A stretch of DNA of 64,000 bases. It comes from Pseudomonadota bacterium (lineage in GTDB: Bacteria; Pseudomonadota; Alphaproteobacteria; Micropepsales; Micropepsaceae). Below the pieces are notes generated by a model, which made no database searches, was not told the DNA's origin, and worked only from the letters and a program-made list of their open reading frames with translations. Position numbers and translations under genes: made by a program. The stretch spans positions 62,001-126,000 of the forward strand of contig JAJZDZ010000007.1 in the NCBI GenBank assembly GCA_021851325.1. Reading direction: 5' to 3'. Shown here in pieces: positions 596-31,443 of this stretch. Numbering within the stretch: position 1 is the first letter of the stretch; each line of letters begins with the position of its first letter.

Positions 596-1810
596 ATGCA
601 AACCGAATTTCACCGCATCCGGCGGTTGCCGCCCTACGTCTTTGAAGAGGTCAACCGACTAAAGGCCCAGGCCCGAGCAAGGGGCGAGGACATCATTGAT
701 TTTGGGATGGGTAATCCGGATATGCCCACTCCCGCCCACATCATCGACAAGCTGGTCGAGACCGCCCGCGATCCACGCTCCAACCGCTATTCAGCATCAC
801 GCGGCATCAAGGGGCTGCGCAAGGCCATGGCGGGATATTATCTGCGTCGCTTTGGCGTAAAGCTGGATCCGGATCGTGAAGTGATCGCTACGTTGGGCTC
901 CAAAGAGGGTTTTGCCAATCTGGCCCAGGCCATCACTGCGCCGGGTGATGTCATCCTCGTGCCTAATCCGGCCTATCCGATCCATGCCTTCGGATTCATT
1001 CTGGCGGGAGCGGCCATACGCCATGTCCCTGCCACGTCGCCGGAAGAGTATCTGCGTAGTCTGGACCGGGCTGTCCGTCACTCGGTGCCACCGCCGACGG
1101 CGCTGGTAGTCAACTATCCCTCCAATCCAACGGCGCAAGTGGTGGGCCTCGACTTTTATCGCGAGATCGTTGCCTTCGCGAAACGCCACGAGATCTGGGT
1201 TCTGTCCGACCTTGCCTATGCCGACATTTACTTTGATGAAGCCAACCCGCCGCCGTCGATTCTTGAAATCGAGGGGGCCAAGGATGTCGCGGTGGAGTTT
1301 CAGTCTCTGAGCAAATCCTACGCTATGCCCGGCTGGCGCATGGGTTTCGCCGCTGGCAATGAAACCTTGATCGCGGCATTGGCGCGCATCAAGTCTTATC
1401 TTGATTACGGCGCCTATACGCCAGTGCAGGTAGCAGCGACGGCGGCACTCAATGGGCCGCAGGACTGCGTTGCCCAGATGCGCGCAATCTATCGTGCCCG
1501 ACGTGATGTTCTGATTTCAGCCATGGCTAACGCGGGCTGGCACATTCCCTCACCACCAGCCTCGATGTTTGCCTGGGCACCCATTCCAGAAGCGATGCGC
1601 CATCTGGGTTCGCTCGAATTTTCGAAGCAGCTTCTGGCGCATGCCAAGGTTGCTGTCGCTCCCGGACTGGGCTTTGGCGAATATGGCGAAGGGTATGTGC
1701 GTATCGCACTCGTTGAAAACGAGCAACGCATCCGCCAGGCGGCACGTAATGCCAAGCGGTTTCTCAGCATGGCACGCAATGATTCGGGTGCCCTGGAGAA
1801 CGCTGAATGA
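596..1810 (+). CDS. alaC: AlaC-type alanine/glutamate aminotransferase, PLP-dependent
   Basis: This is a class I/II aminotransferase of 404 residues, a normal length for the family. The start FHRIRRLPPYVFEEVNRLK and the early IDFGMGNPDMPTP match the AlaC / LL-diaminopimelate aminotransferase branch. The NYPSNPT motif lies near residue 175, and SLSKSYAMPGWRMGF holds the PLP lysine near residue 240. The expected reaction is glutamate plus pyruvate giving 2-oxoglutarate plus alanine, in the cytoplasm. Genes of this branch are often annotated as LL-DAP aminotransferase, and the sequence alone does not settle the substrate. Its stop overlaps the start of hom by ATGA, which indicates translational coupling and a role in amino-acid synthesis. 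Confidence 0.85.
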   Translation: MQTEFHRIRRLPPYVFEEVNRLKAQARARGEDIIDFGMGNPDMPTPAHIIDKLVETARDPRSNRYSASRGIKGLRKAMAGYYLRRFGVKLDPDREVIATLGSKEGFANLAQAITAPGDVILVPNPAYPIHAFGFILAGAAIRHVPATSPEEYLRSLDRAVRHSVPPPTALVVNYPSNPTAQVVGLDFYREIVAFAKRHEIWVLSDLAYADIYFDEANPPPSILEIEGAKDVAVEFQSLSKSYAMPGWRMGFAAGNETLIAALARIKSYLDYGAYTPVQVAATAALNGPQDCVAQMRAIYRARRDVLISAMANAGWHIPSPPASMFAWAPIPEAMRHLGSLEFSKQLLAHAKVAVAPGLGFGEYGEGYVRIALVENEQRIRQAARNAKRFLSMARNDSGALENAE

Positions 1811-3093
1811 GCCAGCCCCTCAGGATCGCGCTGGCGGGACTAGGCACTGTCGGAGGCGGCGTTGCCAAACTCCTGCTTACGCGCAAGGAAGAGCTGTCCG
1901 CTCGGGCAGGCCGGTCGCTTGAACTGGTCGCGGTGGGTGCGCGTGACCGCACCAAGCCGCGGGGAGCAGATCTGTCCGCCTTGACCTGGTTTGGTGATGC
2001 GGTCGCGCTCGCAAGTTGTGACGCTGACGTAGTGATCGAATTGATCGGTGGTGAGGAAGGGTCTGCACGCCGTCTGGTCGAAGCTGCTCTGCGGGCCGGA
2101 AAGCACGTGGTCACCGCCAACAAGGCGCTTCTGGCCCATCATGGTCTTGAACTTGCGCAGATTGCCGAGCGTCAGAATGTAGCCCTGCGCTTCGAAGCGG
2201 CGGTCGCAGGGGGTATTCCGATTGTCAAGGCGCTGCGCGAAAGCCTTATCGCCTATGGCATCAGGGCTGTACGGGGAATTCTCAATGGCACCTGCAACTA
2301 TATTCTCACCCAGATGGAAGCCAGCGGTAAAAGCTTCGCTGAGGTCCTGCGGGAAGCTCAGAGTTTAGGCTACGCCGAAGCTGATCCCACGCTTGACATC
2401 GGCGGAGGTGACACCGCCCACAAGCTTGCGTTGCTCTCGGCCCTTGCATTCGGTGTAGCGCCGCGCCTTACACAAATTCATACCGAGGGTATTGCCCATA
2501 TCACCCCGGACGACATCCGCTTTGCCCGCGAGTTCGGCTTTCGCATCAAGCTGCTCGGAATGGCGCGAGAGACCGCGCACGGGCTCGATCAGCGGGTTCA
2601 GCCGGCCATGGTGCGGGCTGGTACCCCGCTGGCGGATGTGGAGGGGCCTTTTAATGCTATTCTTGCGGATGCTGGCGAAGCCGGCCCGTTCTTCTTCGAG
2701 GGCCGTGGAGCCGGGGAGGCGCCGACGGCCTCCGCCGTGATCGCCGATCTGGTCGATATTGCCCGTGGTACCCATGGCGCCCCGTTTGGCCGGCCTGCGG
2801 CTGATCTGAAATCCGCTGTGGGTGAAGCTCCAGACCGGGTGTCGGCATATTATCTGAGGTTTGAGGTGCTCGATTTGCCTGGTGTCCTGGCTGAAATCGC
2901 AGGTCGACTGGCCGAAGCCGAGGTCTCAATTGAGAGCATGATCCAGCGCGGCCGTTCTCCGGGCGAGCCCGTGGCCATCGTCATGATCACCCATGAGTGC
3001 GCCGAGTCCCGTGTCACGGATGCCTTGAAGGTGATCGCCACCTCAGACAAGGTGCTAGGCAGTCCGTGCATGATTCCGATGGAAGCCGCCTGA
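1807..3093 (+). CDS. hom: Homoserine dehydrogenase with C-terminal ACT domain
   Basis: The protein has 428 residues, typical for monofunctional bacterial homoserine dehydrogenase. It reduces aspartate semialdehyde to homoserine, the branch point to threonine and methionine. The N-terminal Rossmann loop GLGTVGGGVA (about residues 10-19) binds NAD(P). VVTANKALLA and GGIPIVKALRESL are family motifs of the catalytic domain, as is LNGTCNYILTQME. From about residue 345 an ACT domain (YYLRFEVLDLPGVLAEIAG) follows, the usual site of threonine feedback. The start overlaps alaC by four bases. glpX follows after 28 bp. Confidence 0.95.
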   Translation: MSQPLRIALAGLGTVGGGVAKLLLTRKEELSARAGRSLELVAVGARDRTKPRGADLSALTWFGDAVALASCDADVVIELIGGEEGSARRLVEAALRAGKHVVTANKALLAHHGLELAQIAERQNVALRFEAAVAGGIPIVKALRESLIAYGIRAVRGILNGTCNYILTQMEASGKSFAEVLREAQSLGYAEADPTLDIGGGDTAHKLALLSALAFGVAPRLTQIHTEGIAHITPDDIRFAREFGFRIKLLGMARETAHGLDQRVQPAMVRAGTPLADVEGPFNAILADAGEAGPFFFEGRGAGEAPTASAVIADLVDIARGTHGAPFGRPAADLKSAVGEAPDRVSAYYLRFEVLDLPGVLAEIAGRLAEAEVSIESMIQRGRSPGEPVAIVMITHECAESRVTDALKVIATSDKVLGSPCMIPMEAA

Positions 3094-3121
3094 ACGGTTC
3101 CATCCGGCATGGGGAGCTGGC

Positions 3122-4081
3122 ATGAGCAAGGCCTTGGATCGCGCCTTTGCACTCGAAGCTGTTCGGGTGACAGAGGCAGCAGCACGTGCTGCGGCACGGT
3201 ATGTTGGCCGCGGCGACGAACATGCTGCCGACGAAGCCGCAGCAGGCGCGATGCGCGAGGCATTTTCCCATCTGCCGATCAATGGCCGTGTGGTGCTGGG
3301 TGAGGGCGAATGCGAGGACGTTTCAGTCCTGTTCAGTGGTGAAGTTGTAGGCAGTGGCGGGGTGACCGTTGATCTCGCTCTTGATCCTTTGGAAGGCAGC
3401 ACCCCAACGGCAAAATCTCTGCCCAACGCTCTGTCGGTACTCGTCATTGCCGAACCTGATACACTGCTGACGGTGGCTGACCTTTATATGGACAAGATCG
3501 CGATTGGGCCGGGTTATCCGTCGGGACTCATCGATCTCGACCAGGATCCTGCCGAGAATATCGTGGCACTGGCTAAGGCCAAGCATGTTCCGGTCGGTGA
3601 TATCACCGTGTGTATTCTAGATCGTCCGCGTCACAGCCAGATCCTTGAACGCGTGCGTAGCTCTGGCGCAGCGGTCAAACTCATCGATGATGGTGACGTC
3701 GCGGCGATAATTGCCACCTGCGACCCGCATAGCGGCATCGACCTCTATCTGGGCAGTGGCGGAGCGCGTGCAGGAATCCTCGCTGCTGCAGCCCTGCGCT
3801 GCATTGGCGGTCAGATGCAGACGCGGCTGGTTATCCGCAACGACGAAGAGCGTATGCGTGCGGCGCAGTTTGATCTGAATGATGGACGCCGTAAATATGA
3901 ACTCACTGATCTGGTAGGAGGTGATGTCATCTTTGCTGCAACCGGCGTAACCGATGGAGCGTTGCTGAATGGTATCAGGCGTGTGAATGGTTACACTTTT
4001 ACACAGAGCGTCGTGATGCGTGCGGCAAGTGGGACGGCACGCTACGTGCGCGCCCGTCATCGGATCTGTGATGGACTTTGA
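3122..4081 (+). CDS. glpX: Class II fructose-1,6-bisphosphatase GlpX
   Basis: The protein has 319 residues, the usual length for GlpX. It dephosphorylates fructose-1,6-bisphosphate in gluconeogenesis; some alphaproteobacterial members also act on sedoheptulose-1,7-bisphosphate. The metal-binding signature of the Li-sensitive phosphatase fold is present as VDLALDPLEGSTPTAK near residues 81-96, and GEGECEDVSVLF lies upstream. LYLGSGGARAGILAAAAL and FAATGVTDGALL are further GlpX blocks. The start ATG at 3122 follows a purine-rich stretch (GGGGAGC). The order alaC-hom-glpX-recJ is common in alphaproteobacteria. Confidence 0.93.
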   Translation: MSKALDRAFALEAVRVTEAAARAAARYVGRGDEHAADEAAAGAMREAFSHLPINGRVVLGEGECEDVSVLFSGEVVGSGGVTVDLALDPLEGSTPTAKSLPNALSVLVIAEPDTLLTVADLYMDKIAIGPGYPSGLIDLDQDPAENIVALAKAKHVPVGDITVCILDRPRHSQILERVRSSGAAVKLIDDGDVAAIIATCDPHSGIDLYLGSGGARAGILAAAALRCIGGQMQTRLVIRNDEERMRAAQFDLNDGRRKYELTDLVGGDVIFAATGVTDGALLNGIRRVNGYTFTQSVVMRAASGTARYVRARHRICDGL

Positions 4082-5861
4082 GGGTCTCTCGAAAGGTGCC
4101 GGCACCTTTTCATTCGAACGCTCGTTTTCGGGCAGATCCTGGTCAACGCGAATATTTGATCCGGCTGTTGCGGGGGAGTTGAGTGAGACAGCGCCATTAT
4201 CGCCGGTACTTGCCCAGATCCTGGCAGCGCGGGGGGCCACCCCGGGGGCGCTGGCCGATCTTCTGCAGCCAACTCTGAAGCGACTACTTCCCGATCCACT
4301 GGAGTTGACCGACATGGAGCGGGCCGTCGAGCGCGCAGTTTTTGCCCTTGAGCACGACGAGCACATTGCAATCTTTGGTGATTACGATGTCGACGGATCG
4401 TGTTCCGCAGCACTCCTCAGTCTTTTCTTGGAAGCGGTAGGTAAGCCCGCCCGGGTTTATATCCCTGATCGTATGCGCGAAGGCTACGGACCTAATATTC
4501 GGGCATTGAGTCTGCTCAAAGATGAGGGAGCTGGACTCGTGATCACCGTGGATTGCGGGGCCGGAGCCCATGCTGCGTTATCGGATGCGCGTGCTTTGGG
4601 GCTCGATGTGGTGGTGCTGGACCACCATGCAACGGACGAGCCAGTGCCCGCTTTCGCCCACGTCAATCCCAATCGCGGCGATGATCGCGCGCAGCTGGGA
4701 CATTTATGTGCGGCAGGGGTAAGCTTTCTCTTTGTTGTTGCCCTCAACCGGCAATTAAGGGCTAGAGGCTGGTATTCCACGAGGGGTGTTACTGAACCCG
4801 AGCTTATGGCCTTCACGGACCTGGTGGCGCTGGCCACGGTCTGCGACGTGGTCCCATTGACCGGCGTCAATCGCGCCTTTGTTCGTCAAGGACTTCTGCG
4901 CATGGCTAACCGGCTGCGGCCTGGCCTTGCGGCACTCTGCGAAGTCTCCAAGGCCCGCAGTCCGCTTGGCACCTATGCGCTCGGATATGTGCTGGGGCCG
5001 CGGATCAACGCCGGAGGCCGGGTCGGGCGCTGTGATCTGGGCTGGAGCCTGCTTGCCGCTTCCGACTTGAATGTGGCGCGCCCCCTCGCAGTCCAGCTCG
5101 ACCGTCACAATCGGGAACGCCAGGCCATTGAAGCTCTCATACTGGAGGAAGCTGTAGCACTAGCGGAACTCCAGCATAACCAGCCGTTCATTCTCCTGGC
5201 CGAGCCGGACTGGCACCCAGGCGTCGTAGGAATCATTGCCGGACGATTGAAGGATCGGTTTCTGAAACCCAGCTTTGTTGCCGGCCTGGTGGGAGGAGAG
5301 GGGCGCGGCTCGGCGCGTTCAATCCCCGGAATCGACATCGGCGAGGCGATCAGGCTGGCGGCCAGCCGCAAACTGATTGCCGGAGGAGGGGGCCACGCCA
5401 TGGCGGCCGGTTTCTCGCTATCAGCAGCCCAAATCGAGGGTCTGCAGGGATTTCTGCTAGAGCATTTTGCCTCACAAGACGGCGGGGCTGCCCTTAGCGC
5501 CAGTCTGGCGCTCGACGCAGTTGTTGCCGCGTCAGCCTGTCGTGAGGAACTGGTTGAAGAATTTGAACGGATCGGGCCGTTTGGGGCCGGCAATTCTGAG
5601 CCGATCGTTGGCATTGCAGACCTTACCCTTGTCTATGTCGATGTAGTTGGTCAGGGCCATGTCAAGCTACGCCTGCGAGCGCATGCTGGAGTGCAGCTTG
5701 ACGCGATCGCCTTCCGCGCGGCCGGAACAGAATTGGGCAAAGGCCTTCTGGCTTCACGCGGCAAGGCGATCCACGTTGCAGGGCGTCTTAGACTGGACGA
5801 ATGGGCAGGCCGCCGGCGGGTTCAGCTTCAGCTCGACGACGCCGCGCCCGCCCAGGCATGA
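4071..5861 (+). CDS. recJ: Single-stranded-DNA exonuclease RecJ
   Basis: RecJ degrades single-stranded DNA 5' to 3' in recombination and mismatch repair. The DHH phosphoesterase core shows FGDYDVDGSCSAALL, VDCGAGAHAAL and VVLDHHATDEP (the DHH triplet), followed by HVNPNRGDD. The DHHA1 part carries AGGRVGRCDLG and GGGGHAMAAGFSL, and an OB-fold tail ends the protein. I chose the ATG at 4071, which overlaps the end of glpX by 11 bases and gives 596 residues. An in-frame ATG at 4020 would overlap glpX by 62 bases and add a non-conserved leader. Length and motifs look intact. Confidence 0.93.
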   Translation: MDFEGLSKGAGTFSFERSFSGRSWSTRIFDPAVAGELSETAPLSPVLAQILAARGATPGALADLLQPTLKRLLPDPLELTDMERAVERAVFALEHDEHIAIFGDYDVDGSCSAALLSLFLEAVGKPARVYIPDRMREGYGPNIRALSLLKDEGAGLVITVDCGAGAHAALSDARALGLDVVVLDHHATDEPVPAFAHVNPNRGDDRAQLGHLCAAGVSFLFVVALNRQLRARGWYSTRGVTEPELMAFTDLVALATVCDVVPLTGVNRAFVRQGLLRMANRLRPGLAALCEVSKARSPLGTYALGYVLGPRINAGGRVGRCDLGWSLLAASDLNVARPLAVQLDRHNRERQAIEALILEEAVALAELQHNQPFILLAEPDWHPGVVGIIAGRLKDRFLKPSFVAGLVGGEGRGSARSIPGIDIGEAIRLAASRKLIAGGGGHAMAAGFSLSAAQIEGLQGFLLEHFASQDGGAALSASLALDAVVAASACREELVEEFERIGPFGAGNSEPIVGIADLTLVYVDVVGQGHVKLRLRAHAGVQLDAIAFRAAGTELGKGLLASRGKAIHVAGRLRLDEWAGRRRVQLQLDDAAPAQA

Positions 5862-5935
5862 GAGCCCTTGCAATGCGGAAGTGGGCCGGCTATAGCGCCC
5901 CTGTCCACATGGCGGTGCTGACGCATCGCGGGCCT

Positions 5936-6010
5936 GCGCCCTTCGTCTATCGGTTAGGACTCAAGATTTTCAATCTTGCAAGAGGGGTTCGACTCCCCTA
6001 GGGCGCGCCA
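5936..6010 (+). tRNA. tRNA-Glu (anticodon UUC)
   Basis: The cloverleaf can be drawn by eye. Acceptor strand GCGCCCT (5936-5942) pairs with AGGGCGC (6000-6006), followed by discriminator G and an encoded CCA (6008-6010). The anticodon stem CAAGA/TCTTG encloses the loop TTTTCAA, which gives anticodon TTC. The T arm is GGGG-TTCGACT-CCCC. Its 3' half has been copied into the downstream DNA and is the integration target discussed below. Confidence 0.95.
5966..6010 (+). repeat. att-like site, native copy in the tRNA-Glu 3' end
   Basis: This is the reference copy of a 45-bp direct repeat running from the anticodon loop of tRNA-Glu to its CCA end. It recurs exactly at 8556-8600 and 10282-10326 and in decayed form at 20823-20861. 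tRNA 3' ends are classic targets of tyrosine integrases, and integration regenerates the tRNA. Here the intact tRNA is the leftmost copy. Confidence 0.85.
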
Positions 6011-6159
6011 AGTGTTTTCAATGGCTTGTGGCCGAAGGCGCGAAGGCTAGACACTCAGGGTCTTGATATCTGGCATTTTGACAGTTTTGGGCTGGAAGCG
6101 AATACGGTTGGGATTTGCTCGGACGCGACCGGAATTGAATTCGAGTGACGATAGCCCCC
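6011..6159 (+). repeat. Cassette end next to tRNA-Glu, with a GGCTAGACAC element
   Basis: This non-coding stretch follows the tRNA. It contains GGCTAGACAC (6045-6054), a one-base variant of the GGTTAGACAC repeat seen at the other cassette ends. A related layout (GCGAAGGTTAGACAC) stands at the same distance after the second att copy, at 8630-8643. A weaker match to bases about 6070-6125 lies after the decayed att copy near 20920-20980. I read it as the end of an integrated element. Confidence 0.55.
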
Positions 6160-6681
6160 TCATGCTTCTATCATCCGTTTTATAACACTCATGGGTAGCA
6201 CAAGGCGCAGAGAGTCGGGCAATCGCACGAAGCCGTTGGCTTCATAGAAGGTTGCGGCGCGCTCATTGATTGCATCCACGACCATCATCGATGCGCCAAT
6301 GGTGGAGGCGCTGGCATAGGTGCGACGCACGGCATCGGCGATGAGTATCGCACCGAGGCGCTGTCCTTGCCGGGTTGCCGATATTGCTAGCCGTCCGACG
6401 AGGATCGCCGCTACTAGTGGATAGCGAGGGATGTGCTTGCGTGCCGCAACTGGTACCTCTCCTTGCGGTACGGCCGTGGCGCAAAGAGTGTAGTAGCCAA
6501 GCACCATGCTTGGCTGCGTCGAAACGACAAGTACAAATACACCATTTGCCTTACGGCGGACATCCTGGCCTGCCTGATCCCGGATATAGCGATCGAGACT
6601 ATCGATCCCGCAGGAGAATGTGCTTCGGTCGTGATGCTCTGCGAGGGCCTCGATCCTTAGATCAGGCCGGGACCCAGGCAT
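6160..6681 (-). CDS. GNAT acetyltransferase toxin (TacT type)
   Basis: This is a GNAT-fold protein of 173 residues. The CoA-binding loop is ATRQGQRLGAILIADAV near residues 101-117, and the usual late tyrosine lies in AATFYEANGFVRL. LGYYTLCATAV is a further family block. Known relatives (TacT, AtaT, KacT) acetylate the amino group of charged tRNAs and block translation. The partner antitoxin gene lies just upstream on the same strand, with a 2-bp gap, in the antitoxin-then-toxin order typical of TacAT. A decayed second copy of this gene lies at 21014-21330. The gene is the first cargo of the tRNA-Glu cassettes. Confidence 0.85.
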   Translation of the reverse strand: MPGSRPDLRIEALAEHHDRSTFSCGIDSLDRYIRDQAGQDVRRKANGVFVLVVSTQPSMVLGYYTLCATAVPQGEVPVAARKHIPRYPLVAAILVGRLAISATRQGQRLGAILIADAVRRTYASASTIGASMMVVDAINERAATFYEANGFVRLPDSLRLVLPMSVIKRMIEA

Positions 6682-6683
6682 CT

Positions 6684-6998
6684 TTACGACCCCACCCGCC
6701 GCTTGTGCTCGGCCAGCGCGCGTTGAAGTCGTTTGCTAGGCTCCGGCGGATGCATGAGCGTATCAAAGAATGCCTTACGGTCACGAGCCGACAACGCCAG
6801 TGTCTCATGCTCAGCGATGACCCGCCGAGCAGTATCGAGCAGCGCCGTGACGCAGAAATCGCTCACCTTGCGCCTGGACAGGCTGGCAGCTTGTTCGATC
6901 AAATCCTTAGATTCTTCATCGAGCCGAAAGCCGAGCCGCTCGTCTCGGTTGCGCGGCTTACGCTCAATTTTCGTTCGCTCGCGCGCCATGACGATCAC
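6684..6998 (-). CDS. DUF1778 ribbon-helix-helix antitoxin (TacA type)
   Basis: The protein has 104 residues. The N-terminal half (RDERLGFRLDEESKDLIEQA) is a ribbon-helix-helix DNA-binding segment of the DUF1778 family, and the C-terminal tail (EPSKRLQRALAEHKRR) is the part that neutralises the GNAT toxin in known pairs. Antitoxins of this kind repress their own operon. A candidate operator, TTGAC-6 nt-GTCAA, lies at 7036-7051. The toxin ATG follows the stop codon after 2 bp. Confidence 0.85.
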   Translation of the reverse strand: MIVMARERTKIERKPRNRDERLGFRLDEESKDLIEQAASLSRRKVSDFCVTALLDTARRVIAEHETLALSARDRKAFFDTLMHPPEPSKRLQRALAEHKRRVGS

Positions 6999-7055
6999 TC
7001 CAGAACTCTAAAATAGGCGTGCAATGTGTGTCATATTGACGTACAAGTCAACACC
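6999..7055 (-). promoter_or_regulatory. Candidate promoter/operator of the GNAT-DUF1778 module
   Basis: An inverted repeat TTGAC-GTACAA-GTCAA stands at 7036-7051, about 40 bp upstream of the antitoxin start. On the - strand its arm supplies a TTGACT box usable as a -35 element. A TATTTTAGA stretch about 20 bp further on is a possible -10. This fits autorepression by the RHH antitoxin, but it is read by eye only. Confidence 0.4.
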
Positions 7056-7508
7056 TTCTTGCCACCGCTTCCTTGGCTGTGTGCCATACCCTTCGTTCAA
7101 GATCTCACAGCTATCCGGTAAGACTGGGAGCGACCATCAATCGCTAGCATTTTGCCAAGTTCTGGAAGGTACATGTCCGCTGGCCGCGCTGACCCACCAC
7201 AGGATGCGGGCATTCGGTTCGAGCTTCTGCACGGATCAGGATTGAACCGTCGCAGATGGGGGCGAACCTCTCAATCGGTACCCGTTCTGCTCGCCTTCAC
7301 CGATCTTTACCGACCTAACACGGATGCCGTGCAGATAGGCGGAACTGGTCTTGGCCAGGAGCTTGATTTGGGCCAGGCGATAGCTACTCGTTTGGGTGCG
7401 ATTAAATCGCGCCACTGGCTACCATCGTTAGGAACTATTATGACCGAGTGTTGTGTCCTAGCGCCACGGACCACTTGCCTCTCGACGTGTTCAAGGCGAG
7501 ACCATGGC
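7056..7508. other. Gap between the TA module and the methyltransferase
   Basis: I see no convincing gene here. Open frames on both strands lack a ribosome-binding site and family motifs. The sequence may be decayed cargo of the first cassette. Confidence 0.4.
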
Positions 7509-8144
7509 TCAGCCCCTGGACACGAAAGTGAACAGCCGTTGGCCGGGAACCAGCACGTAGGGCTCGCCTGTCAGGCGGTGCGCGCCCACCGACATGAAGC
7601 CGTCGTGGCTGATGTCGAATGCCTGCTCGTTGAAACCGGCCTCCATGAACCAGGATCGGATCTTGGGTGTCAGATCTGGTGGACTGCGATGCCGCGTCCA
7701 GAGGACCAGCGCGCCGGGCGCGCACAGGCTAGGTAGAGCTGCTACCGTGCCCTGGATGTCCTTTGCAGTAATGTTACCGAAAATGCCGCATACCAAGACG
7801 ATCTGCGCGGGGACCGCACCTACACAAACTTCGGTAACCCCAGCGTCGGCCTGCAGTATCTCAACGCCATCTAGCCCAGCCGCCTGGGCAAGCTGCCGCG
7901 CGACAGCGACGTTGCGGTCGTCCAGCTCGACCAGCCGGGCACGTACGTCGTCCCGGCGTGGGTGCTTGGCCAACACGCCGATCGCGTCCCGGCCCTGTCC
8001 CGCGCACAGGCTGATCAGGCGTATCGCCCCGGTGGGGAGACGATCGAGCTCGCGGCGAAGGTGCCCCTGCACAAGTTCCAGGCGACGCGATAGCATAGAA
8101 TTTGGATTATCATAGTCTCGGTGCCATTCCGCCCAGTCCTGCAT
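7509..8144 (-). CDS. SAM-dependent methyltransferase, class I
   Basis: I chose the ATG at 8144, which is preceded by AGGAAGG at a good distance; this gives 211 residues starting MQDWAEWHRDY. An upstream in-frame start at 8201 lacks such a site. RLISLCAGQGRD is motif I of the Rossmann-like SAM-binding fold, VRARLVELDDRNV holds the acidic residue for the ribose, and IVLVCGIFGNI is motif IV. The tail is HRLTGEPYVLVPGQRLFTF. The substrate cannot be told. The gene sits in the first cassette, in the same orientation as the TA genes. The 3' end of a second, broken copy lies at 11709-11806. Confidence 0.75.
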   Translation of the reverse strand: MQDWAEWHRDYDNPNSMLSRRLELVQGHLRRELDRLPTGAIRLISLCAGQGRDAIGVLAKHPRRDDVRARLVELDDRNVAVARQLAQAAGLDGVEILQADAGVTEVCVGAVPAQIVLVCGIFGNITAKDIQGTVAALPSLCAPGALVLWTRHRSPPDLTPKIRSWFMEAGFNEQAFDISHDGFMSVGAHRLTGEPYVLVPGQRLFTFVSRG

Positions 8145-8276
8145 GCCGGCCTTCCTCCACGATCCTCCCTCAACGCTAGTCCCGCGATCATGCACGCGCA
8201 ATGAAGGTCAAGCGGTCGGCGCCAGGTTTGAGCCATCCTGAAGCAATGCTATGGGGTCGATAGCTTTAGTCAACGG

Positions 8277-8429
8277 ATGGTATTCTTGGTCGTGAGAGAG
8301 CAAACTACGGCGGCATTAATTCAGACTATTCGCATCAGCGATGAAGAGCGCTTGCTACTCGAAGTGGATTCCGAACAGGCGCATTTGCTAAGCGACAGCC
8401 AACGTGAGATTGCATTTGCAGCAGGATGA
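8277..8429 (+). CDS. Possible small protein of 50 residues, function unknown
   Basis: The frame runs from ATG 8277 to TGA 8427-8429. The product is acidic and helical in look (IRISDEERLLLEVDSEQAH). It is the only cassette frame on the + strand with this protein-like composition. No ribosome-binding site stands out and I do not recognise the family. It could be chance or the end of a lost gene. Confidence 0.25.
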   Translation: MVFLVVREQTTAALIQTIRISDEERLLLEVDSEQAHLLSDSQREIAFAAG

Positions 8430-8456
8430 GGCTGCGCGCAGGGTTAGAAGAAGGAC

Positions 8457-8555
8457 CGCGGTTAGACACTGCTGGTTATAGCCGCTTGATCAAATATGCA
8501 GTGGTTAGACACCTGTTCGGAAGCTAAGTTATTGAACAGTCGCAATTGTTTCCTA
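8457..8555 (+). repeat. Left-end repeat of the first cassette, with two GGTTAGACAC elements
   Basis: This 99-bp segment ends at the second att copy. GGTTAGACAC occurs at 8460-8469 and 8503-8512. The segment aligns without gaps to 10183-10281, with about 80% identity counted by eye, and the two repeat elements lie at identical offsets in both. The spacing and repetition resemble arm-type integrase sites. Confidence 0.7.
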
Positions 8556-8600
8556 ATTTTCAATCTTGCAAGAGGGGTTCGACTCCCCTAGGGCGCGCCA
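8556..8600 (+). repeat. att-like site, second copy of the tRNA-Glu 3' end
   Basis: An exact 45-bp match to 5966-6010. It starts in the anticodon loop and ends with the encoded CCA. The 5' half of the tRNA is absent, so this is not a tRNA gene. It separates the first and second cassettes. Confidence 0.9.
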
Positions 8601-8760
8601 TTGATTTCAAGTACTTGCGAGCATGCGTGCGAAGGTTAGACACACTCGCTCTTGAAGGTTTCGTCAAAAGCGAGTGTCCAGCGCCAATTTGGCGCGCGGA
8701 CGGCAAACTTGTACGTGCCACAAAGAGCCTGCAAGGCTCGCGGGACGTTGACGTGGGTCC
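8601..8760 (+). repeat. Cassette end after the second att copy
   Basis: The sequence resembles that following the native tRNA. GCGAAGGTTAGACAC lies at 8629-8643 against GCGAAGGCTAGACAC at 6040-6054. No gene is supported between here and the end of higA at 8901. Confidence 0.5.
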
Positions 8761-8900
8761 CTGCGCCCCGGTCGAGGAATAGGTTTAAAGATTTCCTCCA
8801 TGGCAGGTGCCACTTTTAAGACCATCCAAAAAGGTATGGCGACATGAAGCGCCACGAGCGCATAGGAGCTACTTACTGAAGCAGGCTGTGGCATTCAGCA

Positions 8901-9215
8901 TCATTCAGCCGCTGAGAGGGTCGGTATTCGTGCTACGTCGCTTTTCAATTTCTCGTCAACCGTCCGAAGATCGTGTTCGTTCTGCGGGCTCAGCCAGGAT
9001 TCAGGCTTGGTGCCGATCAAGTTGGCGTGCCGCAGTGCGATGTTCGGTGTCACTAGTATCCTTTCATTAAGCAGATCGTAAAAGGTCTGGCGAGAAATGC
9101 CGAGCAGATCGGCAATCTCTGTCTTGGGACGCTTCAAAGCAGACAAAACGTCCTCGCGCAGCATGGTACCAGGGTGGATTGCGGGCAGTCCGGCAAGCAG
9201 CTTGTTTGGGCTCAT
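8901..9215 (-). CDS. higA: HigA-family antitoxin, XRE-type DNA-binding
   Basis: The protein has 104 residues, the usual size for HigA. IHPGTMLREDVLSALKR is the family N-terminus, and TEIADLLGISRQTFYDLLNER is the helix-turn-helix. The tail ending DVARIPTL is also typical. HigA neutralises the HigB mRNA interferase and represses the operon. Normal order is higB then higA. Here the start codon overlaps a TGA (TGATG) that ends a stub of about ten HigB codons, so the toxin has been deleted and the antitoxin is an orphan. It may persist as a regulator or as an anti-addiction gene. Confidence 0.85.
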   Translation of the reverse strand: MSPNKLLAGLPAIHPGTMLREDVLSALKRPKTEIADLLGISRQTFYDLLNERILVTPNIALRHANLIGTKPESWLSPQNEHDLRTVDEKLKSDVARIPTLSAAE

Positions 9216-24681: not shown

Positions 24682-27594
24682 ATGAAGCGTAAAATGACTA
24701 GGAAGCGCGTGAGCGCGAGCTTTTGGTTGATCGGTGCGGGTATTCTTGCCGCACCATGTTTTTTGCTATCGGCGAGTGCACGCGATAGCACATCGCGCTT
24801 TGTTCCGGCCCCGGTAACGGTCACAGCTGCTAATCGTGCAAACTATACGGCGATATTGCCGACTTGGAGACGAGTAACTCCTGTTGGGAGTATCGTTAGC
24901 ACGCCTAATTTTCCCACCAAGGTGATCGCAACTGGCGGTCATGTGCTGGTATTGACCAATGGTGCGACTCCCTATCAGGCGGTCACGTGGTATAGTCGTG
25001 AGTTGCTACGCCAGGCCCGATTGGGGACGATTGCGCAGCAGTCGCCGCCCATTGCTATGGTAACCACCTTTGGAGGCACCACTGCCGTAGCGCTTGATCC
25101 CCAACATATCGGGGCTCCGGGCATGGTTTATACAACGGACCAACCGGCAAAGAAGCGCGCCTCAGAGGCGCTTAAATCGGCGGGGGTCGAACGTAACGCG
25201 AAATCCATACCCACAAAAATCATTTCCCACAGTGATCTCTTTCAGGGACTAGCTGCGAGTCCTACCGGTGTCGTATACGCTACGGGAGGAAATTCCGACG
25301 TGGTGCTAGCGCTGCAACTTAAGGACAACGCTGTCCACGTGGTGCGGCAGTATTCACTTCGTTGGCAAACATTCCCGCGCAACCAGTATCCCTATACATA
25401 CCAAGGAGATCACGAGCAGAAGCCTTACAGCTTTTTTCCGGACTCAGTGGTAGTAGGCCCTAACGACCGGCATCTTTACGTAACGGGGATGCTCGCGAAC
25501 AGTCTTGCACGTATCAATATCCAAAGTGGGAAGACTGCATATGTAAACGTAGGTCCTTATCCGTTTGCCGTAATCTTGGCAGACGGTGGTCGGCGGCTGG
25601 CAGTGAGTGATTGGGCAGGGACTGGGGTAACGATACTAGATCGCCAGAGCTTAAAAGTGCTTGGCGTTGTCGCTACCGGACCGGTGCTCAGTGCCCGTAC
25701 GGCCGCTGCGGGAGTGCACCCGACGGCAATGGCTGCGGTTAAAGATAGCACGGATGTTTGGGTGGCAAACGCCAATGATGATCAGTTGGTGGAAGTTGAT
25801 ACGCAGGCCCTCAAGGCTGTACGGACTATCAACGATCGTCCTTATGCAAACGCGCCTCCAGGTAGCTATCCCGATGCGTTAGCAATTTCACATAACAGGC
25901 TGTTTGTTGCGAATGCCGGTAACGATGACGTTGCCGTTTATGATACCGCTAAAGGCAAGTTGATGGGGCTAATCCCTACAGGCTGGTATCCGAGCGCGCT
26001 CACGCTTGATCATGACAGCCTGTATGTTGTGGCCGCGAAAGGGTTGGGAACCGGACCTAACTTGCAGTGGCAATACATTGGCAACATGATGAACGGGCTG
26101 CTGCAGAAAGTCCCCTTGCAAGGGTTGCGCAAGAAGCTACCTGGCTGGACCCAGTTGGCGCTGCACGATGACCGCTTCCAATCTTCTCAGCGTAATGCTC
26201 TAGCTCGACGCAACAGACAAACCAGCGAATTTTTGCGCCGTCACATCCATTATGTGGTCTTTATACTACGTGAAAATAAGACTTTTGACGAAGATCTGGG
26301 GGACTACAGGCGCGCAGGAAAGTGGGCAAACCCAAAATTTGATCTTTATGGACTAAAGGAACTGCCTAACCTGTATCATTGGGCACGGCACAACGTCCTA
26401 TTTGCCAATTTCATGGCTGATGGCGAGGTGACAGCTCAGGGGCACCAATGGACCGACGGGGCCTCAGATTCGGACGTAGTGCAGCGGCTTTGGCCTCAGT
26501 ACTATTCTCATCGTGGGTTACTCTGGAATGCTGGACCCGGTGGGACTGGAGCACTCGATCCGGCAACGCCCGCAAGTCACGATTCGTTGGAATATGCGCA
26601 TCGCCAACTTGGCGCATTCGCCAATCCCTGGATAAGCTATCCTCAGCGCCTCTATCTCTTCAATAATCTTCTGGCTCACAACATCTCATTCGAGGATTTT
26701 GGCGAAAATCTGACACGGGCAAGGGACGGGGTAATCCGTAGAGCGCTTGCTGCGCACGTGGATCAGACCTATCCAGGTTGGGACAGAATGGTTCTGGATA
26801 CACGCCGGGTAGCGGCTGCAATCTCCTGGTTGAAGGCGCATCCGGGCACAGCGTTCCCACATTTCATCTTCATTTGGATACCTGACGATCACACCGCAGG
26901 ATTGAGTCCGTGCTACTACAGTCCAGATTATTACGTGGCAAATAATGACCATGCCACGGCTCAGTTCCTGCATTATCTTTCTGGAACTCCGCAGTGGCGT
27001 CACATGGTGGTATTTTTGGATGAGGATGACGCACAAAGTGGCGCCGATCACGTTAACGCCCACCGCACACTTGGCCTCGCATTGGGCCCGTGGGTACGCG
27101 CAGGAAAAATCGACACAGAGCCTTTGTCTCAGGTAAACATTGTTCGGAGTATCGAGGCAGTTCTGGGCTTGCCTGCGATGTCGCAATGGGATGCCAATGC
27201 CCAAGTTATATCAGGCATCTGGCGAAAAACTCCGCGGGTAAGTCACATGCCTATCCTGCCGATGTCAGAAGAGGTGCAATTCAATGCCGGCAAGTGCAGC
27301 AATCAACTGCTACTACGGCGGGAAGCTGCTGCTACAGGGCATACATTAAGATCGGGATGGCTTAAAGGGCATACTGATCCACATGGTGCCGGTGCGCAGG
27401 CTCATGCGTCTGCGGTTAGCTACACTCCAACATCCATCTTAAAGGTTGACGGTCCGGAGCAGATGCGTCAGGAGTGGATCGCGAGCAAGGGAAAGAAAAG
27501 TTATCAAGCGTTTCAACGCTACATCCATGCCTATGCCGCGTCCCACGGAACTACAGTTTCTGCGTATGAGGCAAATGACGGACAAGTGAACTAA
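24682..27594 (+). CDS. Secreted YVTN beta-propeller / phosphoesterase fusion
   Basis: The protein has 970 residues and starts with a basic-hydrophobic signal (SFWLIGAGILAAPCFLLSAS). Residues about 180-470 are a YVTN/YncE-type propeller, with repeats such as VVVGPNDRHLYVTGML, LADGGRRLAVSDW and ISHNRLFVANAGNDDVAVYD. From about residue 525 a phosphoesterase domain of the alkaline-phosphatase superfamily follows: HYVVFILRENKTFDEDLGD, FMADGEVTAQGHQWTDGASD, FIWIPDDHTAG and VVFLDEDDAQSGADHVNAHR carry the metal and active-site positions. Related proteins are acid phosphatases or phospholipases. A hairpin follows the stop codon. Confidence 0.85.
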   Translation: MKRKMTRKRVSASFWLIGAGILAAPCFLLSASARDSTSRFVPAPVTVTAANRANYTAILPTWRRVTPVGSIVSTPNFPTKVIATGGHVLVLTNGATPYQAVTWYSRELLRQARLGTIAQQSPPIAMVTTFGGTTAVALDPQHIGAPGMVYTTDQPAKKRASEALKSAGVERNAKSIPTKIISHSDLFQGLAASPTGVVYATGGNSDVVLALQLKDNAVHVVRQYSLRWQTFPRNQYPYTYQGDHEQKPYSFFPDSVVVGPNDRHLYVTGMLANSLARINIQSGKTAYVNVGPYPFAVILADGGRRLAVSDWAGTGVTILDRQSLKVLGVVATGPVLSARTAAAGVHPTAMAAVKDSTDVWVANANDDQLVEVDTQALKAVRTINDRPYANAPPGSYPDALAISHNRLFVANAGNDDVAVYDTAKGKLMGLIPTGWYPSALTLDHDSLYVVAAKGLGTGPNLQWQYIGNMMNGLLQKVPLQGLRKKLPGWTQLALHDDRFQSSQRNALARRNRQTSEFLRRHIHYVVFILRENKTFDEDLGDYRRAGKWANPKFDLYGLKELPNLYHWARHNVLFANFMADGEVTAQGHQWTDGASDSDVVQRLWPQYYSHRGLLWNAGPGGTGALDPATPASHDSLEYAHRQLGAFANPWISYPQRLYLFNNLLAHNISFEDFGENLTRARDGVIRRALAAHVDQTYPGWDRMVLDTRRVAAAISWLKAHPGTAFPHFIFIWIPDDHTAGLSPCYYSPDYYVANNDHATAQFLHYLSGTPQWRHMVVFLDEDDAQSGADHVNAHRTLGLALGPWVRAGKIDTEPLSQVNIVRSIEAVLGLPAMSQWDANAQVISGIWRKTPRVSHMPILPMSEEVQFNAGKCSNQLLLRREAAATGHTLRSGWLKGHTDPHGAGAQAHASAVSYTPTSILKVDGPEQMRQEWIASKGKKSYQAFQRYIHAYAASHGTTVSAYEANDGQVN

Positions 27595-27639: not shown

Positions 27640-28122
27640 GCTTATTGATGGCGTACTGATAGTATTGTGCCTATGTAGCGCGTCCGGAATTCTCTAACAC
27701 ACATGTCCGCGAAGCGCCCACCGGAATGTCCGCGTAAACCTGATGATCGACGTTTCAAGATATGATCCCGCAGAAGGCTCTTCTCGCCGACAGCACCTGA
27801 AAGCGGTCTATCCGTCGCTAGATGCGGAAGTGGCATGGCGACGTCGAAAAGGAGGGCAAAGCAGGTTTCGCGTAGTTCCGTCAAAATTTGATCGGGGGCG
27901 TTACGTGGAGCTACAGGAGTATGCCATAAGATCAAACCTGGGGCTTGGCCTCTGTTTAGGCAAATAATTCTTTTGCCAAGCAAAAGGCGGTACTGGCATA
28001 GATATGCTGCCAGTCAGGGCACTTAACCTGACATATATGTCATGCGCCGGAGATCTGAGCCATCCTCGGTTGCAATCAAGCGTACTTGCGGCATATTCAT
28101 GAGGCCATTTGGAGCAGTGCGC
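27640..28122. other. Intergenic region upstream of the telA operon
   Basis: A 74-codon + frame (27743-27967) and an antisense frame are present, but neither has a ribosome-binding site or known motif. The telA promoter should lie here. Confidence 0.35.
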
Positions 28123-29349
28123 ATGTCTGATGGAAAGGACGCCCCTCTCGATCTGTCCCAGTTCGACAGTTTAGAGGTTTCTCCACCTCCCGCACCCAAT
28201 CTTGTGCCGTTACCTGCAGCTCCGACGCTACCCCAGGGACCTGAACCGGCGCCAGAGCGCCTGGTTGATATATCCAATCTCAATCCTGAAGATTTGGCAG
28301 CATCGCAGGCGGCTGCCGACAAAGTCAATTTTCGGGACACTGCGTCTCTCCTTGCCCACGGTGAGGGAGCTATGGCTGAAATTGCGCAGGCGTCACGGCA
28401 GTTGCTGACCGGGGTACGTCTGGGAGATGCCGGTGAGGTCGGCCAGATCGCCGCCAGCGTGATTGATGGTGTAAAGATATTACGTATCGAAGATCTTCAG
28501 TCCGAATCTAAAGGAGCGAGTCCGGCGGCCAAGGGGCTTGTGGGACGCTTCATGCGGTTCGCTGCGGATGCTCATTCGGCATTTAAGGGCTTTGCGGAAA
28601 ATCGTAAAAAGTTCCTCGATCTGATGGATCAGGAGCAAGCCAGAGCACGAAAAATAAAGGCTGATTTGACTGTGGCGGTACAACTGATGGACCGTCAGGC
28701 AGATGCAATTCGCAACAGTCTTCATGCACTCAAGATTGCCATCGCTGCGGGGCAGATTGCTTTGGATCGTGGGCAGACGGAGCTTGAGACCCTGCGCCAG
28801 AAAGCTGAGGCGTCCGGCGATGCGGCCGAGGCCGCAGATGTTATGGAGTTTCGTTCGGCGCTCGCCAATTTTCGCGGTAAGATTGCTGAAATGCGCGAGA
28901 ATCTTGTTGGTTCAGCAATGCTAATTCCGATAATCGGTCAGAATCGGAAGGCAGCTGAGACACGGATACTTAAAATTTCCGACGGAATGCTGGTTGTTAT
29001 TCCTCGTCTGATGGCGGTGGCTAGTCAGGCTGCGGTGCAGGTTGATATTGCCCGCGCCGCACAAGAATCCGAAAAGCTTGATGAGGTTGCGCGTCAGATT
29101 ACGGTCTTGGCTTCTAAAGGCGCGCATGATGCCGCGACCAGCGCCGCACGGAGCCTGGGAGGAGATGCTCGTAATATTGAGGTGCTGGCTCAAGTTGCCG
29201 ACGAAACCATTCGCACGATGCATGAAGTAATGGAAATTGAACGTGAGGTTGCAGCCGGGGATCGTGAGCGTGAGGCTAAACTTGCGGCAATTCGTGATCG
29301 CCTCGTTACGGGTATGCAGGGTGTAAATAAGGCTGCGGTGCAACAGTGA
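28123..29349 (+). CDS. telA: TelA/KlaA-family toxic-anion resistance protein
   Basis: I chose ATG 28123 (MSDGKDAPLDLSQ), with GGAG 8 bases upstream; the product has 408 residues. An earlier in-frame start at 28042 adds an unlikely leader. The N-terminus is rich in Pro. The remainder is almost all alpha-helix and matches TelA, e.g. MDRQADAIRNSLHALKIAIA, GSAMLIPIIGQNRKAAETRI and the C-terminal VEVLAQVADETIRTM-like block. TelA proteins are linked to tellurite resistance and to membrane or envelope stress; the mechanism is unsettled. The next gene overlaps its stop, so it leads a four-gene operon. Confidence 0.85.
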   Translation: MSDGKDAPLDLSQFDSLEVSPPPAPNLVPLPAAPTLPQGPEPAPERLVDISNLNPEDLAASQAAADKVNFRDTASLLAHGEGAMAEIAQASRQLLTGVRLGDAGEVGQIAASVIDGVKILRIEDLQSESKGASPAAKGLVGRFMRFAADAHSAFKGFAENRKKFLDLMDQEQARARKIKADLTVAVQLMDRQADAIRNSLHALKIAIAAGQIALDRGQTELETLRQKAEASGDAAEAADVMEFRSALANFRGKIAEMRENLVGSAMLIPIIGQNRKAAETRILKISDGMLVVIPRLMAVASQAAVQVDIARAAQESEKLDEVARQITVLASKGAHDAATSAARSLGGDARNIEVLAQVADETIRTMHEVMEIEREVAAGDREREAKLAAIRDRLVTGMQGVNKAAVQQ

Positions 29350-29726
29350 GCGGACCGGGATTTGACATAGAGGCAGCGTGGCTGCGCCGCTTTAGCGCTG
29401 ATGCGGAAAGTAATCTGACTGCATTTGCGTTGAGGCTTAAGGAATCGATGCCGGAGCTCGTGACGGTTCGGGAAAGTAAAGGTCTATTTTCAAGGCACGG
29501 GAGAATTGCAGCGGTTAGTATAGATCTGGGAGAGCACCGCTATGGACTTGAAATAGATCGCGGCCGACTTAGGTCCACCCTCAGTATGGTGGTACGGGGT
29601 ATTGTACTAAATACTAAAGAGCTGACCCCATCCGAATGGTTCGCAAAGCTGCTTGAGGAAACACACAAGATGAGCGAGCACGCTGAAGGTCTCAGCCAAT
29701 CCCTGTCGCAGTTCATGGCGAGCTAG
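29346..29726 (+). CDS. Small protein of the telA operon, function unknown
   Basis: The protein has 126 residues and starts at a GTG that overlaps the telA stop as GTGA. I do not recognise a family. It reads as a mixed alpha-beta cytoplasmic protein, with RIAAVSIDLGEHRYGLEIDRGRL forming likely strands and a helical C-terminal tail (KMSEHAEGLSQSLSQFM). ELTPSEWFAKLLEE suggests a short conserved block. The stop lies 2 bp before the next gene. Tight coupling to telA and to the YbjQ-like genes implies a shared role. Confidence 0.7.
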   Translation: MSGPGFDIEAAWLRRFSADAESNLTAFALRLKESMPELVTVRESKGLFSRHGRIAAVSIDLGEHRYGLEIDRGRLRSTLSMVVRGIVLNTKELTPSEWFAKLLEETHKMSEHAEGLSQSLSQFMAS

Positions 29727-29728
29727 GC

Positions 29729-30625
29729 ATGAGCGATCAAGATCAACTACCGGATATCGACGAGAGCTTTCATCAGGATGTGCTGCGTTGCTTACCCAAT
29801 AACGAGGTCCCCGCTTCAGTGCGAACCCGGCTTCAGGCAGCGCGTGCTGGTCAACGGCCCTGGGCCGCTACTCTTACGCCCGCGGAGCTTATGATCGTTC
29901 GTTCCCATGGGCTGAGACCGATTGCTGCGGTGTGTTCGACCTGCTGGCTGCATTATGGATTTTCATGGACGCGTGGCCATGCCGAGGGCTGGAACGCAGC
30001 TTTGCGCCGGCTTAAACGTGAAGCGTACATGGCAGGCGCTAATGCAGTACTTGATGTTAAGATGCGCACGATCCCGCTAGGGGTTCCAGATAGCATGGAC
30101 TTCAGCCTGATTGGGACTGCCGTATATGTGGACGGTCTTGCCCCTAGTGCGGATCCTGTAGTTGCGACGATTCCAGCACTTGAATTTGTTAAATTATTGG
30201 AAGCAGACGTGGTACCCACTGGTATTGCCATTGGAGCGGATTACCGCTGGCTTAGCGACTGGAACCGCGGCACTACAAATTTAATGATGATGGGTAACAT
30301 TGAGGCACAGAGCCTCAGCGCCTTGTGGAACGAGGTAAGAAATAACGCCCATATGGATCTAAGACGCAATGCGCGCGAGCAGGGTAATGGGGTTTTGGCC
30401 CATTTAAATTTCAGTCAGGGTTTCAAGGTGGAACGTCAGAATCAACCGCCGCAATATCTTGCACGCCATATTGTCGTCGCAACTACGGTCGATGCCCGGC
30501 GTGGAGTACCGCTTCCTCATGACATCAAGATTGTCGTCGATCTCCACCAAGGACGTACGCCTTTGACCGGTACAAGCCGGCACCACCAATCTTATAGCTC
30601 TAATGAATCTGAGGGAGCGATCTGA
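29729..30625 (+). CDS. YbjQ-like heavy-metal-binding-domain protein, diverged
   Basis: The protein has 298 residues. It reads as two repeats of one domain: a Phe/Met-Ile/Val-x-P-x-G strand motif, then a Cys/His hairpin, then a helix with R-x-x-EA-x-x-x-GANAV. First repeat: GLRPIAAVCSTCWLHYGFSW, then KREAYMAGANAVLDVKMRTI, and SLIGTAVYV. The second (VVPTGIAIGADYRWLSDWN) has lost the cysteines. PF01906 (YbjQ) is called heavy-metal-binding by family name, but metal binding is not well proven. The gene lies 2 bp after its neighbours on both sides. The final part is Ser/His-rich. Confidence 0.65.
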   Translation: MSDQDQLPDIDESFHQDVLRCLPNNEVPASVRTRLQAARAGQRPWAATLTPAELMIVRSHGLRPIAAVCSTCWLHYGFSWTRGHAEGWNAALRRLKREAYMAGANAVLDVKMRTIPLGVPDSMDFSLIGTAVYVDGLAPSADPVVATIPALEFVKLLEADVVPTGIAIGADYRWLSDWNRGTTNLMMMGNIEAQSLSALWNEVRNNAHMDLRRNAREQGNGVLAHLNFSQGFKVERQNQPPQYLARHIVVATTVDARRGVPLPHDIKIVVDLHQGRTPLTGTSRHHQSYSSNESEGAI

Positions 30626-30627
30626 TC

Positions 30628-31443
30628 ATGAGCGATGCTATTCCCGCCCACGCGGCAGAGCGGCTAAAAGGACTCAGAACTTCAGCCCATCCAACGGGCG
30701 TATTCACTTCCGATTTCTCAGTCAATGAGTTTCTGCTCGTACGCAAGGCAGGGTTCGAGCCTATTGGTCTTTGCGTCGGCTCTTGCGTTTATCATGTAGG
30801 CATACAATACGGCAGCTGGAGCCGTAATCAGGAACTCAGTGTGCTATCTAAAGCGATGTATCACGCTCGAGAACTTGCGATGACGCGAATGCGCGCGGAA
30901 GCTACGGCTATGGGCGCGGACGGAATCGTTGGTGTCAAGCTTACGATCAAACGTCTTGAGTGGGATCAGCATCTTCTGGAATTTATTGCTATTGGTACTG
31001 GCGTTGTCCATGGTGAAGGTCACAAGGGCTTTCGTGCCCATGATGGCGGACCTTTCACTTCGGACCTATCCGGACAAGACTTCTGGGCTCTTCTACATGC
31101 CGGATATCGTCCCGTTGAAATGGTTATGGGTTCTTGCGTATATCATGTTGCCCATCGTGGAATGCTTTCGGGCCTTGCAACTGTCGGACGTAATGTCGAG
31201 TTGGAGAATTTTACATCCGCGATGTATGAAGCAAGAGAGATTGCCATTGAACGCATGCAGCACGAGGCCGCCGCCTCAAAGGCTGAAGGAGTCGTTGGGG
31301 TCGATATCCATGAAGGAAGTCATGGTTGGCAAACTCATGTAATCGAGTTTTTTGCAATCGGCACAGCTGTCTTACCGCTTGAGCAGGAGATAGCACCTGA
31401 ACGGATACCAGATCCTATCATGGTATTGTCAGTAAATGACTAG
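30628..31443 (+). CDS. YbjQ-like protein with two tandem heavy-metal-binding domains
   Basis: The protein has 271 residues and a clear internal duplication. Repeat 1: FTSDFSVNEFLLVRKAGFEP, GSCVYHVG, RMRAEATAMGADGIVGVKL, EFIAIGTGV. Repeat 2: FTSDLSGQDFWALLHAGYRP, GSCVYHVA, RMQHEAAASKAEGVVGVDI, EFFAIGTAV. The Cys-x-x-His pair in SCVYHV is kept in both and resembles the motif in the gene before it. YbjQ proteins assemble into rings. The position at the end of the telA operon suggests that these proteins work with TelA. Confidence 0.75.
   Translation: MSDAIPAHAAERLKGLRTSAHPTGVFTSDFSVNEFLLVRKAGFEPIGLCVGSCVYHVGIQYGSWSRNQELSVLSKAMYHARELAMTRMRAEATAMGADGIVGVKLTIKRLEWDQHLLEFIAIGTGVVHGEGHKGFRAHDGGPFTSDLSGQDFWALLHAGYRPVEMVMGSCVYHVAHRGMLSGLATVGRNVELENFTSAMYEAREIAIERMQHEAAASKAEGVVGVDIHEGSHGWQTHVIEFFAIGTAVLPLEQEIAPERIPDPIMVLSVND

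Follow-up and report, generated by a model that had tools for sequence, protein, structure and literature searches.

A transferable cassette of a divergent TelA protein, a small orphan protein and two tandem YbjQ proteins as a candidate membrane-stress module

TelA and YbjQ/DUF74 are labelled protein families for which, to our knowledge, no mechanism has been settled; the former includes YceH as well as YaaN. YaaN is presented as a TelA protein in PMC12791056, which also cites a Listeria telA (lmo1967) mutant whose sensitivity was raised 4-fold for nisin and 2-fold for tellurite, and lists lmo1967 among the bacteriocin-responsive genes. The sigma-W table of Bacillus subtilis in PMC3498285 includes pspA, floT, xpaC-yaaN and the yceC-H operon, and TelA is said to form sub-membrane structures in PMC7824862. 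Here, a cassette of four genes is described in which a telA-type gene is combined with a small orphan gene (hereafter Small) and with two genes for proteins with tandem YbjQ domains (Y3 and Y4). The cassette is located in a stretch of 64,000 nucleotides (the window) of a Pseudomonadota bacterium from the family Micropepsaceae (assembly GCA_021851325.1, contig JAJZDZ010000007.1, positions 62,001 to 126,000).

The four genes are arranged head to tail on the plus strand in the order telA-Small-Y3-Y4. The telA-type gene (28123..29349) encodes 408 residues from the ATG at 28123. It is followed by Small (29346..29726), which starts with GTG and encodes 126 residues, by Y3 (29729..30625, 298 residues, two YbjQ-type domains) and by Y4 (30628..31443, 271 residues, two YbjQ domains). 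The tight joining of these genes claimed in the original prediction was confirmed, as a 4-base overlap joins the stop codon of telA to the GTG of Small and gaps of 2 bases each are present at the Small/Y3 and Y3/Y4 junctions. The longest telA reading frame opens at 28042; the start at 28123 is supported by the conservation of the family, which starts near MSDGKDAPLDLS. By hydropathy, all four proteins are predicted to be soluble and devoid of transmembrane segments, a value of 1.6 not being reached by any 19-residue segment. At the locus, an Rfam search gave no match, and the counts of promoters and terminators were no higher than the shuffled level.

Further copies were searched by scanning contigs for exact short peptides of Y4, a procedure which favours close relatives and which returned 36 loci, giving a set of 37 together with the window. 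All four genes were present in the same order and on one strand in 34/37 loci, and the cassette genes that were found lay on the same strand in 37/37. Two loci (L025, L043) were counted among the 34 although a contig end cuts inside an end gene, and in two others (L012, L030) the contig end precedes the missing genes. The survey of gene neighbourhoods thus did not reveal the rare co-occurrence which the original prediction had named as speaking against it, and chance neighbours are ruled out by the 34 loci. The overlap between telA and Small was exactly 4 bases in 23/34 loci, with starts set mechanically. Mean pairwise identity over 31 rows (Burkholderia left out) was 0.882 for Y4, 0.734 for TelA, 0.684 for Y3 and 0.659 for Small. 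Y4 is the most conserved protein of the cassette and far more constrained than its partners.

Beyond the cassette genes, no non-antisense protein cluster was common to more than five loci, the flanks having been clustered and not fully annotated. The clusters exceeding this number were antisense reading frames opposite the cassette genes, occurring in 14 and 7 loci. Six clusters of the window's flanking genes were common to locus L010 alone, and three window flank clusters (an ABC ATPase, a histidine kinase and the neighbouring response regulator) also occurred in up to three other loci. A 970-residue protein with beta-propeller-like and phosphoesterase matches, also present in L010, is encoded immediately before the cassette on the plus strand (24682-27594).

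The cassette is rare within its own lineage. With the window's own genome included in each count, full-length Y4 was found in 2/37 genomes of the genus, 2/240 of the class and 2/398 of the phylum, where a distant triple-YbjQ match was obtained in addition; Small was found in the same two of the 398 genomes. Hosts of the cassette include Bradyrhizobium, Rhodanobacter, Legionella, Burkholderia and the acidophile genera Acidocella and Acidiphilium. When a tree was built from the concatenated four proteins (32 rows), Rhodanobacter and Legionella took up separate positions among alphaproteobacterial rows, and a constraint joining the four gammaproteobacterial rows was rejected (p-AU 0.0074, approximately unbiased test); the group enclosing the Rhodanobacter pair had a support of 93, just under the tool's star. 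Because the flanks differ, the cassette is rare in its genus and a single gammaproteobacterial clade is rejected, these sequence data are read as transfer of the whole cassette as one unit between distant bacteria. In a record titled Bacteroidetes (L036), the cassette groups with Legionella, reflecting either a binning error or a further transfer.

None of the carriers considered was retained as the usual one. Prophages or viruses were rejected, no Y4 relative having been found in phage records or viral contigs, and so were plasmids, with three plasmid records containing Y4 and none of them matching the TelA profile. Searches by tblastn with the window's TelA and Y3 (E 1e-20, 1e-5) found no plasmid, the Y3 query missing the Y3-like gene of Streptomyces described below. 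Base composition was uninformative as a signal of transfer (G+C content of 0.532 in the cassette against 0.531 and 0.543 in the flanks).

A patchy and mobile distribution of this kind could point to a module that defends the cell against phages or competing bacteria and in which a TelA-type reinforcement of the membrane would stop entry or depolarisation. The scarcity of full-length Y4 in genus and phylum and the transfer between classes agree with such a role, as do the jumbo-phage and Ter contexts of TelA mentioned in PMC7824862 and the match of the window's TelA to PHROG 5890 (E 2e-14), a phage family labelled 'tellurite resistance'. However, none of the four window proteins was matched by a PADLOC model, the clustered flanks contain no constant protein, and the absence of Y4 relatives from phage records and viral contigs also speaks against it. 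Overall, a defence function is considered unlikely.

The YbjQ part of the cassette was analysed at the level of single domains, four copies of which had been claimed in the original prediction. Against Pfam YbjQ_1 (PF01906, cut-off 23), Y4 scored 78 bits in two stretches and Y3 28.8 bits in one stretch, while the second half of Y3 gave no YbjQ match. By profile comparison (hhalign), the latter was linked to domain 1 of Y4 (probability 93.9, E 1.6e-7), with a weak link to domain 2 of Y4 (26.9) and none to domain 1 of Y3 (0.9) or to a single YbjQ (5.0). Three copies are therefore solid and the fourth is only probable on these profile matches. The distribution of the Cys/His hairpin proved to be as claimed, with GSCVYHV-type hairpins in both domains of Y4, STCWLHY in the first domain of Y3, and no Cys at the hairpin position of its degenerate second domain. 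The window's genome also encodes one ordinary single YbjQ copy. For each of the three closest YbjQ proteins of solved structure (2gtc, 1y2i, 1vr4), five chains are present in the PDB entry, which by analogy makes the presence of YbjQ rings plausible. Thiamin phosphate synthase activity is given to 'YbjQ' in PMC7084401; this was set aside as probably referring to the unrelated YjbQ.

In the aligned rows, residues C53, H56, C170 and H173 of Y4 were unchanged (23/23), and C72 and H75 of Y3 were present in 22/23 and 21/23 rows, respectively. Among more distant proteins, the hairpin Cys was absent from domain 1 of Streptomyces Y4 and of the Aulosira copy; the Y3-like protein of Streptomyces lacks it in both domains, and the triple-YbjQ relative in all three. 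Domain 2 of Y4 kept the Cys in Streptomyces, together with the His, and in the broken Aulosira copy without the His. This pattern bears on a possible handling of metals or oxyanions, whereby the hairpins would bind or reduce a metal or a tellurite-like anion and TelA would be a true toxic-anion resistance factor. The constancy of Cys and His in both Y4 domains, nearly matched in the first domain of Y3, and the persistence of the domain 2 Cys in Streptomyces and Aulosira argue for it, along with the Pfam labels of YbjQ_1 ('putative heavy-metal-binding') and TelA ('toxic anion resistance') and the many hosts from acidophile genera such as Acidocella and Acidiphilium. These labels, however, are annotations and not tests, and the hairpin Cys is missing in several relatives' domains and in one of the four domains of the window. 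Moreover, no constant transporter or reductase adjoins the cassette, since no non-antisense flank cluster is common to more than five loci. Metal handling is thus seen as a rather unlikely function of the cassette. The metal or thiol binding suggested in the original prediction is consistent with the 23 close Y4 rows and is weakened by the loss of the Cys in many relatives' domains; it is uncertain, and Y4, above all through its domain 2, may have a function related to metals or redox chemistry.

The telA product matched Pfam TelA (PF05816) with 75 bits (cut-off 30) over model positions 2-326 of 332. In a survey which identified 52 TelA places in 50/299 genomes, 41 of the 52 scored from 206.8 to 376.6 bits, the cassette TelA reaching 75.6 bits in the genome search. 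By its sequence, the cassette TelA is a divergent branch of the family. Another divergent TelA (55.4 bits) was detected in locus L087 (G269:C15:6000-21000, 1110-9091, minus strand) within an operon also encoding DUF350, DUF2617 and a membrane-fused spermine synthase; according to PMC11237479, operons of this type surround PspA or proteins that replace it. In locus L089 (G390:C2:20000-33000, 6102-7996, minus strand), TelA and a second TelA-like gene are adjacent and, by eye, near ParA/ParB-like genes on a 53-kb contig that is possibly a plasmid.

No family was found for Small in Pfam or NCBIfam, and single scans of 26 of its relatives against Pfam gave scattered weak matches only (best E 0.011). 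Its predicted topology consists of two helices, five strands and two further helices. Frataxins were matched by VIA-align with a Z of 5.2 (root-mean-square deviation, rmsd, 3.9 over 90 residues), under the tool's noise guide. A sequence search of solved structures did not reveal any credible relative of Small, Y3 or TelA.

The gene partners differ in relatives of the cassette outside this set of loci. On two Streptomyces plasmids, the order is Y3-like gene, Y4 (57% identical), Small, and no match to the cassette TelA profile was obtained in either. The Streptomyces Y3-like protein, translated from one of the plasmids, matched the Y3 profile (probability 97.4, E 1.2e-11, 214 columns), and pairwise comparison also ties this gene to Y3. 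On a plasmid of Aulosira laxa (L048, 9610-10699, plus strand), a short match to Small adjoins a Y4 relative broken by stops, and the record contains no match to the cassette TelA profile; the sequence is that of a decaying copy in a third phylum, the Cyanobacteria. In genome G045 (L009), Small is accompanied by a triple-YbjQ gene with an in-frame stop in its first domain, an M48 peptidase gene (92.8 bits), two Y3-like genes, Y4 (70% identical) and a PspA_IM30 gene (101.2 bits), and the cassette TelA profile matched nothing in the rest of this 85%-complete genome. In genome G394 (L053, 5582-8789, minus strand), a triple-YbjQ gene is directly followed by a large SPFH/Band_7 gene (70.5 bits). Judging from these gene contents, the wider core is the YbjQ pair with Small. 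This core seems to have several membrane-linked partners, TelA among them (a lead taken from single loci), because the Streptomyces, G045 and G394 variants carry none, PspA with M48, or SPFH. The place given to TelA in the original prediction consequently stands for the cassette branch and not for the whole family, no profile match having been found in the Streptomyces and Aulosira plasmids, in Sphingomonas or in G045. A survey of multi-YbjQ partners matched 3/398 genomes, the window's own included, which is too few for statistics.

The occurrence of the YbjQ pair and Small without TelA would also be compatible with a chaperone or assembly factor for a particular membrane complex, in which YbjQ rings would serve as a folding or storage scaffold, similarly to CesT/Tir or to the band-7 partners of PspA. 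Chaperone-like roles have been proposed for PspA partners in PMC11237479. No constant client gene adjoins the cassette, however, and Small has no clear fold match; such a role is regarded as very unlikely.

The favoured reading, which is held with slightly less than even confidence, is that the cassette is a horizontally moving, soluble (cytoplasmic) membrane-stress module with TelA in the place of PspA, and with YbjQ rings and Small as partners. It is built by analogy on the neighbour genes and on the published biology of TelA, from which we infer the membrane location, the ring, the adaptor role and the type of stress. TelA, as a long-helix protein, would assemble at the inner face of the cytoplasmic membrane upon damage or leak and would perform the job done by PspA in other systems. 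The tandem YbjQ domains of Y4, perhaps together with Y3, could make a five-fold, two-tier ring as the conserved hub, and Small may be the adaptor linking this ring to the TelA/PspA scaffold. Under attack by membrane-active antimicrobials, toxic oxyanions or acid, the complex would then keep the ion barrier intact. The original proposal of a defined unit that acts on envelope stress together with TelA is supported by the conservation of the cassette, its transfer as a unit and the single relatives standing beside PspA/M48 or SPFH. PspA (PF04012) was not matched in the four proteins or in the window's genome (98.03% complete), the same search giving matches in 9/14 control genomes. A broader proposal, possible but doubtful, is that multi-YbjQ proteins and Small form the unrecognised core of a membrane-stress machine present in at least three phyla and swapping TelA, PspA and SPFH as scaffolds; TelA would then be a functional counterpart of PspA.

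Several results weigh against the membrane-stress reading. Upstream of telA, EcfG, strict RpoH and sigma-70 patterns were found in 0/32 loci each, a loose RpoH pattern in 1/32 and RpoE in 1/32 (RpoE control 0/960), so that no stress-sigma promoter pattern is clearly enriched there. YbjQ-like or Small genes were found within about 1.5 kb in 0/30 canonical TelA loci, which confines the link between TelA and YbjQ to the cassette branch. Only the Y3-Y4 pair is present in Sphingomonas vulcanisoli (L044), in whose genome neither the Small nor the TelA profile found a match. Each partner variant is known from one example (a single PspA/M48 locus and a single SPFH locus), the contig of L009 ends just after PspA, where a TelA gene could follow further on, and the absence of PspA concerns one cassette-bearing genome only. 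On the structural side, the TelA model consists mostly of long helices at low confidence (mean pLDDT, the predicted local distance difference test, of 62.9), and the matches of its fold search were all helical and none of them significant (E 0.02 or worse); no PspA/ESCRT-III entry was among the best 50 fold matches listed. Small also had no clear match, with a best Foldseek E of 0.12 and a best VIA-align Z of 6.4 (rmsd 3.0, 84 residues), which is under the tool's noise guide.

The cassette is a new fixed combination of known families with one unnamed family, Small. In agreement with the original prediction, no described system of the same composition was found within the open-access literature searched, in which no paper named both TelA and YbjQ, an earlier mention in the Ter or Listeria TelA literature being possible, and 'heavy metal-binding domain' and 'toxic anion resistance' never occurred together in one paper. 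YbjQ and TelA are also unmentioned in the main text of a second survey of phage-shock-protein (PSP) systems. As a transferable cassette that ties TelA and YbjQ to a dedicated new protein, and with a relative carrying PspA in place of TelA, it makes both functions testable with four soluble proteins. It also offers a handle on the membrane-stress tolerance of acidophiles and soil bacteria.

Compared with known systems, the cassette resembles the PSP systems (PMC11237479), which are likewise operons pairing a membrane-associated coiled-coil protein with soluble partner domains, and single relatives of the cassette contain PspA and M48, or an SPFH gene. It differs from them in that the window's genome has no PspA match, and in that YbjQ and TelA do not appear in the main text of PMC11237479. 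In Firmicutes, a TelA-family protein is similarly placed in an envelope-stress operon (xpaC-yaaN, yce operon; PMC3498285 and PMC12791056), whereas the cassette has different partner genes and a divergent TelA branch. The Ter stress-response systems share TelA as a sub-membrane component (PMC7824862), but no TerD (PF02342) match was obtained in the window's genome. Finally, the single-domain YbjQ/DUF74 proteins (2gtc, 1y2i, 1vr4) represent, by sequence profile, the same domain; in contrast to them, the cassette domains stand in tandem inside a fixed operon, and each carries an extra N-terminal segment of the FTSDLS..E type before the hairpin.

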